Shown: one piece after another, positions 31,679-38,192 of the stretch | Layout of the letters: every line of letters begins with the position of its first letter | How positions within the stretch are numbered: the stretch's first letter is position 1 | Assembly (NCBI GenBank): GCA_017467105.1 | Contig: JAFTSU010000011.1 | Coordinates: forward strand, 1-50,384 | Direction of reading: 5' to 3' | Origin: Clostridia bacterium | Lineage (GTDB): Bacteria > Bacillota > Clostridia > Oscillospirales > CAG-272 | Length of the DNA stretch: 50,384 nucleotides | Notes under the pieces: model-generated | Told to the model about the DNA's origin: nothing | The model's input: only the letters and a program-made list of their open reading frames with translations | Database searches by the model: none | Position numbers and translations under genes: made by a program

Positions 31679-32581
31679 ATGAACGCTATTGAAATCAGAA
31701 ATCTTTCAAAAAGCTTTCGCGGAATGTACGCGGTAGATCATCTGAATATGACAGTTCCGCAGGGCGCGATCTACGGCTTTATAGGCGAGAACGGATCGGG
31801 CAAATCCACCACGGAGAAGCTTATTTGCGGTCATCTCGTTTCCGACGGCGGTGAGATCAAGCTGTTCGGCAGAGATTACACCGATCCCGGCGTAAGAGCC
31901 AGAGTCGGCGCACTGATTGAGAACGCAGGCTGTTTTCCCGGTTCGTCCGTGTATCAGAACCTTATGATGCAGTGTATCAATCTGGGTATCGAGAACCCCG
32001 ACGAAGAAATACGCCGCGTGCTTGAGATCGTGCGTATGGAGGACAACGCAAGCCTCAAATTCAAGAGCTGCTCTCTCGGTATGAAGCAGCGTATCGGTAT
32101 CGCCATGGCTCTGCTTGGAGATCCTGCGCTTCTTATTCTCGACGAGCCGATCAACGGTCTTGATACCGACGGTATGCGTATTATGCGCGAGATTCTCGTT
32201 GACATCACAAAAAAGTACGGCTGTACCGTTCTCATTTCCTCCCACATCCTCGGTGAGCTTGAGAAAATAGCCACTCACTACGGAATTATCCGTCAGGGAA
32301 GGATGATTATGGAGCTTTCCGCCGAGGAAATGGACTCCAGAGCGCAGGTGTTTACCTCTCTTAAATGCGCGGATATGCAGGACGCGAAAAAAGTTCTTTG
32401 CAGTCGGTATGACGACGTGCGCGAGGAAGAAGGATATATCCGCGTTTATGACGTGGATGATACCGCTTCTATCGTGGATTACTTAATGAAAAACGGTCAC
32501 GTTGTCAGCGAGATTTCAAGAAATAAGATCGGTCTTGAAGAATATTACATCGAGCTGATGTCGAAGAAGGAGGCAGAATAA
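31679..32581 (+). CDS. ABC transporter ATP-binding protein (first system)
   Basis: The protein has 300 residues. The Walker A motif is GENGSGKSTT (about 37-46), the signature is CSLGMKQR (about 133) and Walker B is LLILDEP (about 155), with the switch histidine in SSHILGEL. The C-terminal extension of about 80 residues is as in BcrA-type ABC-2 ATPases. It overlaps the permease start by one base. It powers export, often of antimicrobial peptides in this type. It is about 60 percent similar by eye to the second ATPase at 33434. Confidence 0.93.
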   Translation: MNAIEIRNLSKSFRGMYAVDHLNMTVPQGAIYGFIGENGSGKSTTEKLICGHLVSDGGEIKLFGRDYTDPGVRARVGALIENAGCFPGSSVYQNLMMQCINLGIENPDEEIRRVLEIVRMEDNASLKFKSCSLGMKQRIGIAMALLGDPALLILDEPINGLDTDGMRIMREILVDITKKYGCTVLISSHILGELEKIATHYGIIRQGRMIMELSAEEMDSRAQVFTSLKCADMQDAKKVLCSRYDDVREEEGYIRVYDVDDTASIVDYLMKNGHVVSEISRNKIGLEEYYIELMSKKEAE

Positions 32582-33420
32582 TGAATACAACACGTGATAT
32601 TAAATTTGAATCGCCTACCTTTGCTTGCAGAATTAAGGGTATGCTTGGTGTGGACTTCTACCGTCTGTTCCACACGCCTCTCTTTTACATTTTCCTCGCC
32701 ATTGCCGCTATCATCCCTGCGATGGTATCGGCTATGACGACGATGCCGGGACCCGACGGAGAGCAAATTGAGCTTTACTCAAACGTCTGGCAGATCATTG
32801 CCGCGGGTGAGCCTCTTTACGTTATAAAGGGAATTGCCGATTATGCAAACATGAATATGGTATTCATATTCGGCGGGATAATGGTATCGATTTTCATAGG
32901 TCACGATTATAAGTCGGGCTACGTTAAGCAGCTCTTTACCACACACGCAAAGAAGCAGGATTATGTGATCTCCAAGAGCCTTGCTTGCGCCTTTGCGATT
33001 ATCTGTATGTGCGTCACATACCTTATTGGTGGTACGGTGGGCGGCTTACTTGCAGGATATGAAACCGACGTGAACGTAGGCTCGCTTATTATCGCGATCC
33101 TTGGCAAAGCGGTTATGTCGTTCGGTTGGGCAAGCCTTTACACCTTCCTGAACGTAATTTTCAGAAGATATTTCGGGATTTCCGTTGCCTCGTCCTTCTT
33201 CTTCGGAACGGGTATCATTATCATCGGAGCGGCTGCCATAATAGAGTCGTTAGGGCTTCCCACCTACGTGCTTAATCTTTTCCTTTACGGTTCGTCGGTT
33301 AACGCATGTTTGAGCAGTAACGTAGGAACGCTGATAGTCTGCGCGCTTGTGTCGGCTTCGTGGTCGATAATATATAACGTGGTAGGTACAATGCTGCTCA
33401 ATAAATGCGACGTTTATTAA
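32581..33420 (+). CDS. ABC-2 type permease (first system)
   Basis: The protein has 279 residues with six predicted membrane helices. The first helix follows a short cytoplasmic N-terminus and a large loop (about 60-90) lies between helices one and two, as in ABC-2 permeases of BcrB type. The DYKSGYVKQLFTT segment is the conserved cytoplasmic coupling region. Its partner is the ATPase encoded immediately upstream. Confidence 0.9.
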   Translation: MNTTRDIKFESPTFACRIKGMLGVDFYRLFHTPLFYIFLAIAAIIPAMVSAMTTMPGPDGEQIELYSNVWQIIAAGEPLYVIKGIADYANMNMVFIFGGIMVSIFIGHDYKSGYVKQLFTTHAKKQDYVISKSLACAFAIICMCVTYLIGGTVGGLLAGYETDVNVGSLIIAILGKAVMSFGWASLYTFLNVIFRRYFGISVASSFFFGTGIIIIGAAAIIESLGLPTYVLNLFLYGSSVNACLSSNVGTLIVCALVSASWSIIYNVVGTMLLNKCDVY

Positions 33421-33433
33421 GGAGGTCGAAAGG

Positions 33434-34333
33434 ATGAATGCGGTTGAAATAAAAAACTTATCTAAAAGCTTCGGCCCAAAGCAAGCTGTGTGCGGTCTTG
33501 ATATGACCGTGCCGATGGGCGCGATCTACGGATTTATCGGAGAAAACGGATCGGGAAAATCCACCACAGAAAAAATGATTTGCGGTCTTATTCCCACGGG
33601 CGGAGGCTCGATCAAGCTGTATGGCAAGGATTATACGGATGAGTCAGTTCGGACGAAAATGGGCGTCCTGATCGAAGCTCCCGGCTGCTTCCCGGGACTT
33701 ACCGTGTTTGATAATATGATGATTCAGGCGGCTAATCTGAATATTGAAAATTCGGTCAAAGAGGTCACCCGTGTATTAAAAACCGTGCGAATGGAGGGCG
33801 CCGCAGGCAATAAATACAAGAACTGCTCCCTCGGTATGAAGCAGAGAGTCGGTATCGCAATGGCGTTGCTTGGCGACCCTACGCTACTTGTACTCGACGA
33901 GCCGCTGAACGGTCTTGATGCAGATGGCATGAGAATTATGCGCGAGGTATTTTTAAACATTGTAAAGGATGGCAAGCGCAGCATAATAGTATCCTCTCAT
34001 CTTCTCGGAGAGCTTCAGAAGGTAGCTACTCACTACGGCATTATCCGTCACGGAAAAATGATCGTAGAAATGACGGCAGATGAGCTTGACGCAAGTTGCC
34101 GCACATACATGGCATTGCAGTCTGCTGAAATGAACAGAACCAAGATGCTCCTCGGCTGCAGATATTCACGGGTGGAAGAGGACGAAGCGGGTTATATCCG
34201 TGTGTACGATCTGACTACACCCGAAGAGATTGTAACATATCTCTACGAAAACGGAGTATGCGTAACCGAAATAAAGACCGACAAGATCGGGCTTGAGGAA
34301 TACTATATCGATCTTATGAAAGGAGGCAAATAA
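33434..34333 (+). CDS. ABC transporter ATP-binding protein (second system)
   Basis: The protein has 299 residues and carries the same motifs as the first ATPase: GENGSGKSTT, CSLGMKQR and LLVLDEP. Both open with NA-V/I-EI-NLSKSF and end with EEYYI-LM. The pair looks like a tandem duplication of an ATPase-permease unit. AAGGAGG lies just upstream. It could pair with either permease. Confidence 0.93.
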   Translation: MNAVEIKNLSKSFGPKQAVCGLDMTVPMGAIYGFIGENGSGKSTTEKMICGLIPTGGGSIKLYGKDYTDESVRTKMGVLIEAPGCFPGLTVFDNMMIQAANLNIENSVKEVTRVLKTVRMEGAAGNKYKNCSLGMKQRVGIAMALLGDPTLLVLDEPLNGLDADGMRIMREVFLNIVKDGKRSIIVSSHLLGELQKVATHYGIIRHGKMIVEMTADELDASCRTYMALQSAEMNRTKMLLGCRYSRVEEDEAGYIRVYDLTTPEEIVTYLYENGVCVTEIKTDKIGLEEYYIDLMKGGK

Positions 34334-34335
34334 GA

Positions 34336-35145
34336 ATGGAAAACACAATGAAATTTGAAAAGGTCAGCTTTTGTAAGCGCGTGAAAAGCATGCTCAAGGT
34401 TGATTTACGCAGAATGTTCAAGTCAAAGCTGTTTTACATCTTGATTGCCTGCGCACTCGTAATGCCCATACTTATGACGGTTATGATGTCGATGATGGAC
34501 GGTCAGGAATCTGTCAATCAGCAGACCGGTGAGATCACTATTATGGAGGGTCCCGAAAACGCTTGGCAGAATATAGGTACTCTTCCCGGCGGCGAAGCAA
34601 TGGGTGGCAACGAGGTATTTATGATGTGTAATATCAATATGGCGTTTATGGGCGTTGCCGTTTTCGTCTGTCTCTTTGTTTCTGACGATTTCAGAAGCGG
34701 ATATTCTAAAAATCTCTTTACCGTTCGCACGAAAAGAGGAGAATACGTGCTGTCTAAAATCGTTTGCGGCTTTATCACGGGTGCGCTGATGCTTATTGTG
34801 TATTTTGTAGGATCGATGCTGGGAGGAGCGATCTCAGGACTGTCCTTTGATCTTCACGGTCTGAATGCTTGGAATATTGTAATGTGTATGCTCTCAAAGA
34901 TTCTTTTAATGCCCGTGTTCGTTTCCATATTTACGCTGATCAGCATTGCCGCAAAGCAGAAGGCGTGGCTGTCAATATGCGGCTCGTTGGGCGGCGGTAT
35001 GCTGCTGTTTATGACCGTTTCGCTTATCACGCCCCTGGACTCAACTCCCGTTAACGCCATTTTGTGCCTTGCGGGCGGCTTGCTTTTCGCTATAGGTCTC
35101 GGCTTTTTCAGTAGAGCGGTATTGCGTAAAACCGCTTTGGTTTAA
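34336..35145 (+). CDS. ABC-2 type permease (second system)
   Basis: The protein has 269 residues with six membrane helices. The opening KRVKSMLKVDLRRMFKSKLF matches the RIKGMLGVDFYRLFHTPLF region of the first permease, and DDFRSGYSKNLFTVRTKRGEYV matches its coupling segment. The large loop between the first two helices differs most between the two permeases. AGGAGG precedes the start. It is the last gene before a large terminator hairpin. Confidence 0.9.
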   Translation: MENTMKFEKVSFCKRVKSMLKVDLRRMFKSKLFYILIACALVMPILMTVMMSMMDGQESVNQQTGEITIMEGPENAWQNIGTLPGGEAMGGNEVFMMCNINMAFMGVAVFVCLFVSDDFRSGYSKNLFTVRTKRGEYVLSKIVCGFITGALMLIVYFVGSMLGGAISGLSFDLHGLNAWNIVMCMLSKILLMPVFVSIFTLISIAAKQKAWLSICGSLGGGMLLFMTVSLITPLDSTPVNAILCLAGGLLFAIGLGFFSRAVLRKTALV

Positions 35146-35325: not shown

Positions 35326-35467
35326 TTAGATTAGGTTTTTAGAAGCAGAAGCTTTTTGGAGATAAAAATCCTTGGCATGCGTAGATTATTTGGAAGGATC
35401 ATTCCGTGAATTAGTGAGAGGTGCCGGCAGAGCAACCAAAAATTTTCGAAAAAAAATCAAAAAGGTA
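35326..35467. other. Intergenic before the T-box promoter
   Basis: I see no gene in this stretch. It carries a short GTGAATTAGTGAG segment similar to GTGAGTTAGTGAG near 35175, so the terminator region may have been partly duplicated. Confidence 0.35.
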
Positions 35468-35496
35468 TTGACAAGCGCGTTTTTTCGTGCTAAGAT
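35468..35496 (+). promoter_or_regulatory. Promoter of the T-box leader
   Basis: TTGACA (35468-35473), a 17-bp spacer and TAAGAT (35491-35496) put the transcript start near 35503, just before the T-box stem I. Confidence 0.85.
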
Positions 35497-35502
35497 GTAA
35501 GA

Positions 35503-35790
35503 AAATTTGAATAACACAAAACGACTATGATGAAGACGGTCGGAAGGTAGAGCTTTGCAGAGAGTTGTCGGGCGGTGCGAGACAATAGTGATTTCTTCCA
35601 AGTGACCTATCACTTCTGAGTCGGAGGACCGAAAGGCGAATGCCGAGTAGACTCCTTCCGTAATGCTGCGTAAAGGCAAAGAGCTTGCTAGAGCTCGGAA
35701 AGTGGCGGAGATCAAGCTTCCGCAATTTGAGTGGTACCGCGGGTTATATACTCGTCTCAAAGGTTTTACTTTTGAGGCGAGTTTTTTGTT
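35503..35790 (+). promoter_or_regulatory. T-box leader, probable isoleucine (AUC) specifier
   Basis: The T-box sequence GTGGTACCGCGG is at 35731-35742, and the AGAGAG and GGGCGGTG apical motifs of stem I are at 35569-35577. Stem I closes with CGGTC (35537-35541) on GACCG (35627-35631) and GGAAG (35542-35546) on CTTCT (35613-35617), followed by CTGAGT. In the B. subtilis glyQS leader the specifier sits one purine before this helix. The same position here is ATC (35609-35611) followed by A, hence isoleucine. The TGGT bulge fits a tRNA with A73. The terminator is a 12-bp stem (35750-35761 with 35771-35782) and six T. The next gene is an acyl-CoA ligase, not a tRNA synthetase. Confidence 0.9.
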
Positions 35791-35848
35791 TTATTCAATT
35801 TTGTAATCATCATACGAAGAGTTTCAGGGAACGAAAGGAGACAAAAGA

Positions 35849-38152
35849 ATGGATTACAGCTTGAAAGAGGTTGCGGGTAGAATTAAGGACCTGCGTGAAG
35901 CAAAAGGATACACCCAGGAGGAGCTTGCCCGGCTTACCGGTGTTTCCGTTGAGGAATATCGCGTACTCGAGACCGGCGAAACAGATTTCAGCTTCACCTT
36001 TATTTATAAGTGCGCCAAGGCTTGCGACGTCGAGGTGGTTGATCTGCTCGAGGGACGAAGCACGACCCTTACCTCCTTCGCCATAACGAGAAAAGGCGAA
36101 GGCTTAAAGATCTTAAAGCAGCACGGTGTTGAATACAACAACCTTGCTCCTAAGTTTAAGGAAAAGCTCGCCGAGCCGTTCCTTGTTAAATTCCCATATA
36201 TCGCCGAGGAGCAGAACGCGCCGATAAAACTCAATTCTCACAACGGTCAGGAATTTGACGTTATCGTTAAGGGCTCACTTAAGGTTCAAGTCGGCAACCA
36301 CGTGGACGTTCTCCACGAAGGCGACTCCATATTCTATAACAGCTTGATCCCTCACGGTATGATCGCGGTGAGCGAGGGCGGATGCGAGTTTCACGCCGTG
36401 GTTCTCAATCCTCAGGACGGTCTGGTCAGCGAAGAATATCCGGAGGTTCGGTACGTTGCTCCTAAGGTGGTTGAGAAAACCGATACCGTATCAACGGTTG
36501 CAGATAACTTCATAGAGTCCTTCTATGATGAAAACGGTGTGTTCAGCGACATTAAGTTCAAGAACGAAGACAAGTTTAACTTCGCGTTTGATTGCGTCGA
36601 TGCTATCGCGAAGAAAAATCCCGACAAGCTCGCTATGATGTGGGTAGCCAATGACAAGACCGACAGAAGATTTACCTTCGGCGATATGAAGAAGTATTCC
36701 GCGAAGACTGCAAACTACTTCGAATCTCTCGGTATCAAAAGAGGCGATACCGTAATGCTTGTTCTGAAGCGTCATTATCAATTCTGGTTCTGTATGCTGG
36801 CTCTTCACAAGATCGGTGCTATCGCGATCCCTGCAACAAATCAGCTCGTAGAGCACGATTTTGATTACAGATATAAGGCGGCTGGAGTCAAGGCGATCGT
36901 TTGTACCGCCGACGGCGACGTATCCGTTGAAGCCGAAAAGGCAGCGGTAAATTACCCCGGTATGTTAAAGATTATGGTCGGCGGCGAAAAGGAAGGCTGG
37001 CACAACTTCAACGTTGAAATGGAGCGCTTCAGTACACATTATTACCGTACTGAAAATTCTCCCTGCGGTAACGATCCTATGCTGATGCTCTTCACCTCGG
37101 GCACAACCGGCTATCCCCGTATCGCAACCCATTCCTACAAATACGCATTAGGACATTATCCTACCGCAAAGCATTGGCATAACGTAAATCCCGACGGACT
37201 TCACTTCACTATATCCGATACCGGTTGGGGTAAGGCGCTTTGGGGCAAGCTCTACGGTCAATGGCTCTGCGAAGCGGCACAGTTCACCTATGATTTCGAC
37301 AGATTCCATTCGGAAGATATACTGCCGATGTTTGCAAAATATCATATCACTACGTTCTGCGCACCCCCAACTATGTACAGATTCTTCATTAAGGAAGATC
37401 TTTCCAAGTACGATCTGTCTTCTATCGAATATGCAACAACGGCGGGTGAAGCACTTAACCCGGAGGTGTTCAATCAGTTTAAGAAGGCAACCGGGCTTAC
37501 TATTATGGAGGGCTTCGGACAGACCGAAACGACTCTATCTATCGCAAACTTTGTGGGCTCTACTCCTAAGATCGGCTCTATGGGTAAGCCCAGTCCCCTT
37601 TATGACGTTGTTGTTCTCGATCCTGACGGTAACGAGTGTAAGATCGGTGATACCGGTGAGATCTGTATCCGTGTGAAGGACGGAGAAGCTCCCTGCGGAC
37701 TGTTCATCGGATATTATCTGGATGAAGAAAAGACGAGTGAGGTCTGGCACGACGGCTTCTATCACACCGGTGACCAGGCCACGATGGATGAGGATGGGTA
37801 CCTTTGGTACGTCGGTCGTATTGATGACGTTATTAAATCGTCCGGTTACCGTATCGGCCCGTTCGAAATCGAGAGCGTTATTATGGAGCTTCCTTACGTC
37901 CTTGAGTGCGCGATCACTCCCGTTCCCGATGAGGTTCGCGGTCAGATCGTAAAGGCAACCGTTGTGCTTGTGAAGGGTACGGAAAAGTCCGACGGATTGA
38001 AAAAGGAAATTCAGGAGTACGTAAAAACTCATACCGCGCCTTATAAGTATCCGAGAATAGTCGAGTTCGTTGATGAGCTTCCCAAGACTATCAGCGGTAA
38101 GGTAAGACGTGTAGAGATCCGTAAAAACGATATGGAAAAAATGAGAAAATAA
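35849..38152 (+). CDS. HTH-cupin-AMP-forming acyl-CoA ligase fusion
   Basis: The protein has 767 residues. Residues 8-67 form an XRE helix-turn-helix (KDLREAKGYTQEELARLTG). About 110-195 form a cupin (GQEFDVIVKGSLKV, LIPHGM). About 230-767 form an AMP-binding ligase with the P-loop LFTSGTTGYP (about 413), FGQTETT, YHTGDQATMDEDGYLWYVGR, and the C-terminal catalytic Lys in PKTISGKVRR. The DTGWGKALWGKLYGQW segment resembles medium-chain acyl-CoA synthetases. It should activate a carboxylic acid to its CoA thioester. The T-box leader indicates that it is induced by amino acid starvation, which suits activation of a branched-chain acid for amino acid synthesis (inference). AGGAG precedes the ATG. 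Confidence 0.93.
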   Translation: MDYSLKEVAGRIKDLREAKGYTQEELARLTGVSVEEYRVLETGETDFSFTFIYKCAKACDVEVVDLLEGRSTTLTSFAITRKGEGLKILKQHGVEYNNLAPKFKEKLAEPFLVKFPYIAEEQNAPIKLNSHNGQEFDVIVKGSLKVQVGNHVDVLHEGDSIFYNSLIPHGMIAVSEGGCEFHAVVLNPQDGLVSEEYPEVRYVAPKVVEKTDTVSTVADNFIESFYDENGVFSDIKFKNEDKFNFAFDCVDAIAKKNPDKLAMMWVANDKTDRRFTFGDMKKYSAKTANYFESLGIKRGDTVMLVLKRHYQFWFCMLALHKIGAIAIPATNQLVEHDFDYRYKAAGVKAIVCTADGDVSVEAEKAAVNYPGMLKIMVGGEKEGWHNFNVEMERFSTHYYRTENSPCGNDPMLMLFTSGTTGYPRIATHSYKYALGHYPTAKHWHNVNPDGLHFTISDTGWGKALWGKLYGQWLCEAAQFTYDFDRFHSEDILPMFAKYHITTFCAPPTMYRFFIKEDLSKYDLSSIEYATTAGEALNPEVFNQFKKATGLTIMEGFGQTETTLSIANFVGSTPKIGSMGKPSPLYDVVVLDPDGNECKIGDTGEICIRVKDGEAPCGLFIGYYLDEEKTSEVWHDGFYHTGDQATMDEDGYLWYVGRIDDVIKSSGYRIGPFEIESVIMELPYVLECAITPVPDEVRGQIVKATVVLVKGTEKSDGLKKEIQEYVKTHTAPYKYPRIVEFVDELPKTISGKVRRVEIRKNDMEKMRK

Positions 38153-38158
38153 CAAAGG

Positions 38159-38192
38159 CAGGAGCCGGGATTAAAATTCCGGTTCCTTTTTG
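38159..38192 (+). terminator. Terminator after the ligase
   Basis: GGAGCCGG (38161-38168) pairs with CCGGTTCC (38179-38186) and five T follow. It begins just after the ligase stop codon. Confidence 0.85.

Follow-up and report, generated by a model that had tools for sequence, protein, structure and literature searches.

An isoleucine-reading T-box leader precedes a fused acyl-CoA ligase with a likely role in 2-methylbutyrate salvage in Clostridia

Introduction

Why would a T-box leader stand in front of an acyl-coenzyme A (acyl-CoA) ligase? We address this question for a 50,384-nt contig of a Clostridia bacterium (JAFTSU010000011.1, assembly GCA_017467105.1; order Oscillospirales, family CAG-272), referred to throughout, at its full length, as the window. 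Here, a T-box leader at 35518-35762 on the forward strand precedes a gene (35849-38152, +) for a 767-residue protein in which an XRE-type helix-turn-helix and a cupin domain are fused to an AMP-forming acyl-CoA ligase. We consider it likely that the leader is a tRNA-Ile-sensing transcriptional T-box and that it controls a branched-chain acyl-CoA ligase feeding isoleucine synthesis from 2-methylbutyrate. During isoleucine shortage, uncharged tRNA-Ile (anticodon GAU) would pair with the AUC of stem I and the UGGU of the antiterminator; with the tRNA bound, the terminator would not form and the ligase would be made, the RNA presumably switching as other T-boxes do. The ligase would activate scavenged 2-methylbutyrate to 2-methylbutyryl-CoA, which a Vor-type 2-oxoacid:ferredoxin oxidoreductase, encoded elsewhere in the genome, would reductively carboxylate to 3-methyl-2-oxovalerate, and amination of the latter would yield isoleucine. 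Valine is probably made likewise from isobutyrate by way of a paralogous ligase, which stands behind a GUA T-box.

Results and Discussion

A Complete T-Box Leader with an Isoleucine Specifier

In a focused Rfam scan, the T-box model (RF00230) matched 35518-35762 (+) across its whole length (model positions 1-219; 80.4 bits, E 6.8e-18). The motifs named by the sequence-only reading were found where it had placed them. Stem I (35522-35623) comprises four helices, whose pairs were counted in 26 aligned leaders: basal (35522-35526 with 35619-35623; 92.3% of cells paired), lower (35532-35535 with 35613-35616; 100%), upper (35542-35546 with 35595-35599; 83.8%), and distal (35565-35569 with 35581-35585; 99.2%). 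The lower and upper helices flank the specifier, and their paired cells include double changes. The AGAGAG bulge motif lies at 35559-35564 and the distal-loop motif, GGGCGGTG, at 35570-35577. The T-box sequence, GTGGTACCGCGG, starts at 35731 and contains UGGU (35732-35735), the element that pairs with the tRNA acceptor end in the T-box mechanism, which was invariant in the alignment. An intrinsic terminator and T-run follow at 35750-35790.

Because the minimum-energy fold of the leader was uninformative (z -1.7; stem I alone, z 0.3; antiterminator piece, z -0.4), covariation was used in its place. Across the seven named helices of the 26-leader alignment (A1), 96.1% of cells were paired, compared with only 31 to 54% in slid controls, and 14 pairs had changed on both sides vs. 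5.9 in shuffles (0/500 as high) and at most 6 in slid controls. Covariation was weak for the terminator helix, where double-change cells were equalled by 242 of 500 shuffles, and its support is therefore stability: 35750-35782 plus the T-run folds at -20.5 kcal/mol (z -8.5), and none of 200 shuffles was as good. The antiterminator and terminator helices are both conserved, and they are mutually exclusive, having bases in common.

The specifier proposed by the sequence-only reading, AUC (Ile), occupies 35609-35611 (+) and is followed by A and then by CUUC of the lower helix. In the Rfam alignment, the column holding this AUC holds UGG in the trpB leader and UAC in the tyrS leader of the same genome, and we take it as the specifier column. 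Eleven T-boxes were detected in the window's genome at E 0.01 or better. By eye, its ileS leader, GAAGAUCACUUCAGAG, reads AUC in the same register as the window (AUC-A-CUUC-A-GAG vs. AUC-A-CUUC-U-GAG), as does its valS leader with GUA; its thrS leader reads ACC, less surely because that leader is weak (30.2 bits). The genes behind the trpB, tyrS, and valS leaders pass model cut-offs, and the stretches behind the ileS and thrS leaders are gene fragments that score best with the ileS and thrS models, below cut-off. A scan of genome collections found ATC, the DNA form of the specifier, in 78 of 80 loci, the other two being cut by contig ends, so that all 78 readable leaders agree. A further set (L012-L041), which has some contigs in common with the 80 loci, gave ATC in 29 of 30, with L035 cut by a contig end and L041 read with one mismatch in a helix. 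The same gene was consistently downstream of the T-box in the fetched genomes. The anatomy of the leader, the identity of the specifier, and its conservation are thus read from sequence directly.

We regard it as extremely improbable that the specifier is another codon, be it UUC (Phe), with an acid such as phenylacetate, or a Ser or Tyr codon one base off. UUCUUCC does occur upstream, at 35593-35599, and a shift of +1 in AUC-type leaders always yields a Ser codon (UCA, UCC, or UCG). However, UUCUUCC overlaps the covarying 3' strand of the upper helix, outside the specifier position, and in the window clade either U or C can precede AUC (in the DNA, the base 5' is mostly T or C and the base 3' is A, C, or G). 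The same +1 shift turns most Val-type specifiers into UAG or UAA, and three leaders into UCG or UCA, and the trpB, tyrS, ileS, and valS leaders of the genome itself fix the register. The UUC/Phe specifier with phenylacetate as the acid was rejected on this register.

The Fused Acyl-CoA Ligase

The architecture announced by the sequence-only reading was recovered in full by Pfam, NCBIfam, and structure-sequence matches. The XRE-type helix-turn-helix spans residues 12-65 (35882-36043, +; HTH_3 PF01381, E 2.6e-12), and its closest solved sequence is 1y9q, an HTH_3 family regulator (E 3.4e-5 over residues 6-188). The cupin domain covers residues 127-184 (36227-36400, +; Cupin_2 PF07883, E 1e-8), and its four candidate metal ligands, His131, Gln134, Glu135, and His169, were invariant in 123 of 123 rows labelled by specifier in the tree described below. 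The ligase domains extend over residues 252-751 (36602-38101, +), with AMP-binding (PF00501) at 252-610 and AMP-binding_C (PF13193) at 673-751. Lys751, which we take to be the catalytic lysine of AMP-forming ligases, was likewise present in all 123 rows. This domain content rules out a tRNA synthetase or a transporter as the T-box target.

The closest solved relative is Macs of Methanosarcina acetivorans (PDB 3etc, chain A), to which the window ligase aligned over residues 233-762 with 669.5 bits. The match takes in only the ligase part (chain residues 45-578 of 580) and leaves out the XRE-cupin part of the window protein. According to the excerpted text of PMC10455477, Macs prefers 2-methylbutyrate, its Trp259 is critical, and a Gly takes the place of Trp414 of Acs. 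Both residues are kept in the window ligase, as Trp443 and Gly557, and in 280 of 280 ligases compared.

The best NCBIfam match was another AMP-forming ligase, MbcS (NF047394, 447.6 bits), and it raises a rival explanation, namely that the window ligase serves membrane-lipid salvage, with 2-methylbutyryl-CoA priming branched-chain fatty acids when isoleucine is short and no carboxylation taking place. MbcS of Staphylococcus aureus does just this, being selective for 2-methylbutyrate and isobutyrate and feeding fatty acid synthesis (PMC10026030, in excerpt). AUC control would also suit a primer derived from isoleucine. The score, however, is far below the curated cut-off of 850, and assignment as an MbcS equivalog was rejected. 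Genomic context bears further on this rival, as described below.

Paralogous Ligases Divide by Specifier and by Residue 461

At E 1e-100 or better, 242 of the order's 394 genomes have a related ligase; at E 1e-180 or better, and counting unfused ligases, the figure for the class is 180 of 391. In the fetched neighborhoods, which are part of the matches listed in the order-level search, many stand in tandem, usually with one T-box per gene, the first reading ATC and the second GTA. Among 211 distinct full-length ligases (two short open reading frames excluded), 148 had ATC, 40 GTA, and 2 GTC, and in 21 the T-box was absent or unreadable. In a FastTree of 142 of these (every fourth at 84% identity or more, plus all others), the ATC vs. 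GTA/GTC label changed once over 123 labelled tips, and the Val-type group formed 50 rows with a local support of 99. This single change points to one duplication rather than to many independent events.

The catalytic-domain column that best separated the groups was Gly461 of the window (codon 37229-37231, +; DTGWG-KAL): all 81 ATC rows carry Gly there, and all 50 Val-group rows carry Ala. Columns 464, 561, 563, and 564 also differed. Residue 461 directly follows the Trp of the GWG motif and presumably equals the pocket residue Val310 of Acs. A larger residue (Ala) for a smaller acid (isobutyrate) is the expected direction. Many of the most group-differing columns fall in the XRE-cupin part, and, with the conserved cupin ligands, they are no more than compatible with ligand sensing by this part.

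Across 280 distinct ligases from all fetched loci, 179 combined ATC with Gly (134 from the order and 45 from the class), 46 combined GTA or GTC with Ala (42 from the order, 1 from the Vor loci, and 3 from the class), one combined ATC with Ala, and none GTA or GTC with Gly; many class-level rows belong to the window clade and hence are not independent. For another 48 no T-box was found or read by the exact-core scan, including L057, L089, L106, and L108, for which another reading gives ATC. Six gave other codons, and by eye three of these read GTA (L127, L170, and L275) and one ATC (L190), with L035 cut and L292 ambiguous. At the level of sequence, then, specifier, paralogue, and residue 461 match, with one exception.

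Ligase Genomes Mostly Encode Vor and Lack IlvC and IlvD

Among loci with two fused ligases, a gene for Vor alpha was present in the fetched stretch of 37 of 42, the other five ending at a contig end. An amino-acid dehydrogenase gene was found at two loci (L122 and L185). We then surveyed 80 of 93 planned genomes, counting as true IlvC a PF07991 match with E below 1e-70, as true IlvD a PF00920 match at E 1.1e-130 or better, and as Vor alpha a match at E 1e-60 or better. We did not accept weak partial PF07991 matches (E 1e-9 to 1e-3) as IlvC, or PF00920 matches of 1e-103 to 1e-113 as IlvD (G072, G152, G310, and G042, and second copies in G227, G340, and G189). Left out were four genomes with no ligase (G007, G012, G013, and G017) and nine with both ligase types (G269, G176, G129, G154, G186, G106, G134, G046, and G283).

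True IlvC and IlvD co-occurred in the same 23 of 80 genomes: 1 of 28 with the window-type ligase, 4 of 25 with both types, 6 of 12 with a lone ATC ligase, and 12 of 15 without a ligase. Vor alpha followed the opposite pattern (26 of 28, 25 of 25, 12 of 12, and 1 of 15, respectively). Of the 65 ligase genomes, 63 encode it, and the two exceptions, both window-type, are 65 and 57% complete. In genomes with both types the ligases were in tandem, except in G392, where they lie about 11 kb apart. By Fisher's test, with kinship ignored here and below, IlvC differed between window-type and ligase-free genomes (p 3.5e-7) and Vor between genomes with and without a ligase (p 1.2e-12). Within the window's own family alone, IlvC was present in 1 of 15 genomes with a ligase vs. 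12 of 15 without (p 1.2e-4), and Vor in 15 of 15 vs. 1 of 15 (p 2.1e-7). Within the window's own genus, G198, G278, and G309 have ligases and Vor and no true IlvC, and G363 has IlvC and neither ligase nor Vor. The sequence-only reading had cast the ligase as the entry step of branched-chain amino acid biosynthesis; the Vor operons and the scarcity of IlvC and IlvD, both evident in the genomes, support the biosynthetic part, and we infer 2-methylbutyrate as the substrate and the reductive as the direction.

These data also weigh on the lipid-salvage alternative. It gains from the window copy, which has no Vor neighbor. Yet paralogues with the same kind of leader sit in Vor operons in the 37 of 42 tandem loci and, at two loci, with the dehydrogenase, and the ligase genomes almost all encode Vor and mostly lack IlvC. 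We consider priming of fatty acids as the sole fate unlikely, although lipid and amino-acid fates of 2-methylbutyryl-CoA may coexist.

Conversely, ligase and Vor could be fermentative, oxidizing isoleucine and valine, with the acyl-CoA cleaved and the acid excreted. This scheme would suit the reversibility of Vor enzymes and the fermentation of amino acids by gut Clostridia. AMP-forming ligases, however, normally consume ATP, and the ligase genomes are mostly without the standard IlvC/IlvD pathway. Furthermore, T-boxes induce genes on amino-acid starvation (PMC7778990, in excerpt), which favors synthesis and is the wrong sign for a catabolic gene. A fermentative role is very improbable.

Observations at Odds with Isoleucine Salvage, and a Second Ligase Copy

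Several observations weigh against a tRNA-Ile-controlled route from 2-methylbutyrate to isoleucine. The leader scores below the Rfam gathering score (a curation threshold) of 93 bits, which is why the default Rfam scan of the window did not report RF00230 there; among loci of the same family, window included, 5 of 13 reach that score. Of the 211 ligases, 21 had no readable T-box. The compared ligase rows are related by descent, and N-terminal columns 54, 91, 94, 97, and 111 separate the groups as well as 461 does, so a separating column alone is no proof of a pocket effect; the pocket role of residue 461 is itself presumed from Acs numbering. All 15 ligase-free genomes belong to the window's own family, having been drawn from the 20 unmatched genomes listed (132 further unmatched ones exist in the order). 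IlvC is also present in 11 of 65 ligase genomes, one of them window-type (G117), and absent from 3 of 15 ligase-free genomes, showing that plain auxotrophy occurs. The window's genome is 56.6% complete, and a Vor gene was not seen next to the window ligase. Of 23 Vor neighborhoods fetched from window-type genomes, 21 lacked a fused ligase beside Vor, and the exact-core scan found no T-box directly 5' of Vor in these 21 loci.

In one Vor neighborhood (L219) a T-box lies about 1.6 kb upstream of Vor. The Vor alpha proteins of the 21 neighborhoods are 59 to 68% identical to that of the window's genome. At six loci (L203, L207, L209, L212, L216, and L223) a short XRE-cupin-like gene comes after Vor, together with a separate ligase. 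An unfused XRE-cupin gene with a separate ligase was also seen in L281-L287, L289, L291, and L297, in three cases (L289, L291, and L297) behind an ATC T-box.

The last point against is the second ligase copy of the window's genome (contig C3, locus L122), which breaks the rule linking specifier and clade: a Val-type ligase lies 505 nt behind an AUC T-box (L122 10500-11010). Unlabelled in the tree and placed in the Val-type group, it is the sole ATC/Ala case, and counting it as ATC would add one specifier change. In G278 (L134), a relative, this leader stands ahead of an Ile-type ligase, behind which comes a Val-type ligase for which no T-box was found. The C3 leader and Val-type gene are 85 and 77% identical in DNA to their G278 counterparts, and C3 lacks the Ile-type gene that separates the two in G278; comparison of the two loci thus suggests that the exception is probably due to deletion of an Ile-type ligase, leaving an orphan leader. 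By eye, the Val-type ligase has a TTGACA/TATAAT-like promoter of its own.

The order on C3 is T-box (AUC), Val-type ligase, P-loop gene, Vor alpha, beta, and gamma, and an ELFV (Glu/Leu/Phe/Val) dehydrogenase. The Vor gene (C3:33190-34257) encodes an alpha subunit that passes NF005507 (550 bits vs. a cut-off of 399). The P-loop protein (L122 7541-8209, assigned by eye), with no Pfam or NCBIfam match at the thresholds used, precedes Vor alpha in nearly all fetched Vor loci. A divergent gene on C3, preceded by a T-box reading CTT (Leu), encodes a LeuA-like synthase that includes a LeuA dimer domain. After it comes an AMP ligase fused to a xylose-isomerase-like TIM barrel (the whole at L122 11598-15726), and several loci again have a LeuA-like gene with a distant ligase after it.

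Leader and Gene Occur in Unrelated Surroundings

Beyond what the sequence-only reading had claimed, leader and gene were found as a unit in unrelated surroundings. When 29-44.5 kb of the window was compared with the 80 loci (blastn, E 1e-10), the match was limited to leader and gene, 35434-38191 at most. None of the 80 loci had flanking DNA in common with the window by blastn, to which diverged neighbors are invisible at the DNA level; flanks exceeded 1.5 kb on at least one side in 79 loci and on both sides in 58. Since rpoB was not found in the window's incomplete genome, valS and ileS served as yardsticks of transfer. Outside the family, 16 window-type genomes gave a near full-length ValS match; in these, the ligase was 86 to 91% identical to the window's vs. 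66 to 74% for ValS; within the family (G386, G117, and G357) the values were 90 to 93% vs. 83 to 86%. IleS identity outside the genus was 34 to 74%. Because only leader and gene are shared and ligase identity exceeds ValS identity, we infer that the two have spread horizontally. Among the 80 record titles, 51 name a ruminant gut site (sheep, goat, cattle, yak, buffalo, or deer) and 29, all SIG records, name no host.

A broader proposal, which we put forward only tentatively, is a two-branch, tRNA-gated salvage regulon of gut Clostridia in which the paired ligases have diverged in both specifier and acyl pocket, with the codon in the RNA foretelling the substrate, the HTH-cupin part would provide a second, metabolite-sensing input within the enzyme, and leader and gene would be mobile.

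Relation to Known Systems

Known T-boxes (RF00230) of ileS, valS, and branched-chain biosynthesis genes share with this leader stem I, the specifier, AGAGAG, the distal-loop motif, UGGN, and the antiterminator/terminator, and in both the specifier matches the amino acid whose pathway is controlled. They differ in the controlled gene, here an acyl-CoA ligase fused to XRE and cupin domains. The main texts of two T-box surveys (PMC2494555 and PMC3766115) and of the TBDB paper (PMC7778990), as excerpted, name no CoA or acyl-CoA target.

Rumen microbes reportedly make isoleucine from 2-methylbutyrate (Robinson and Allison 1969, by its title). M. ruminantium needs 2-methylbutyrate, and its conversion to isoleucine has been proposed (PMC2812497, in excerpt). 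To reductive carboxylation in the rumen, the present analysis adds an activating enzyme, a regulator RNA, and a separate valine branch, assigned to Clostridia genes. The Vor (PRK07119) oxidoreductase is known as well; it is found here downstream of T-box-controlled ligases, outside the window.

In the open-access literature, we found nothing on a T-box with 2-methylbutyrate and isoleucine, no related paper on a T-box riboswitch with an acyl-CoA synthetase (judged by titles and the openings of abstracts), no bacterial paper on a T-box with reductive carboxylation (by title), and no assignment of the activating genes or their control in Clostridia. The sequence-only reading knew of no described system with this combination, and within that literature the parts are known and the combination is apparently new. 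Here, an RNA codon that names the end-product amino acid predicts the substrate of a widespread ligase family, which bears on ruminant nutrition and cross-feeding. If the proposal is true, leader and gene form a plug-in that moves between species and yields isoleucine from acids excreted by other microbes.

Other Features of the Window and Its Genome

A promoter-like TTGACA-17-TAAGAT lies just upstream of the leader (35468-35496, +), where a consensus scan found one such site vs. 1.1 expected by chance. Directly upstream of the T-box, at 31679-35145, are two similar ATP-binding cassette (ABC) ATPase-permease pairs in tandem (by eye).

Elsewhere in the genome, a T-box on contig C22 (L002 1501-1725) reads UGG (Trp); within the next 300 nt no open reading frame of at least 50 codons begins, and the best match of the first long one is a CehA/McbA metallohydrolase model (69 bits, below cut-off). 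On contig C10 (L007 1501-1697), a T-box has an unsure, Ser-like codon, UCC, and the first long open reading frame downstream best matches an alpha-glucosidase model (70 bits, below cut-off), not an amino-acid gene. A T-box on contig C18 (L004 1501-1735) reads GCA (Ala) and precedes genes for a regulator resembling the Lrp family and an aminotransferase, both scoring below their cut-offs.

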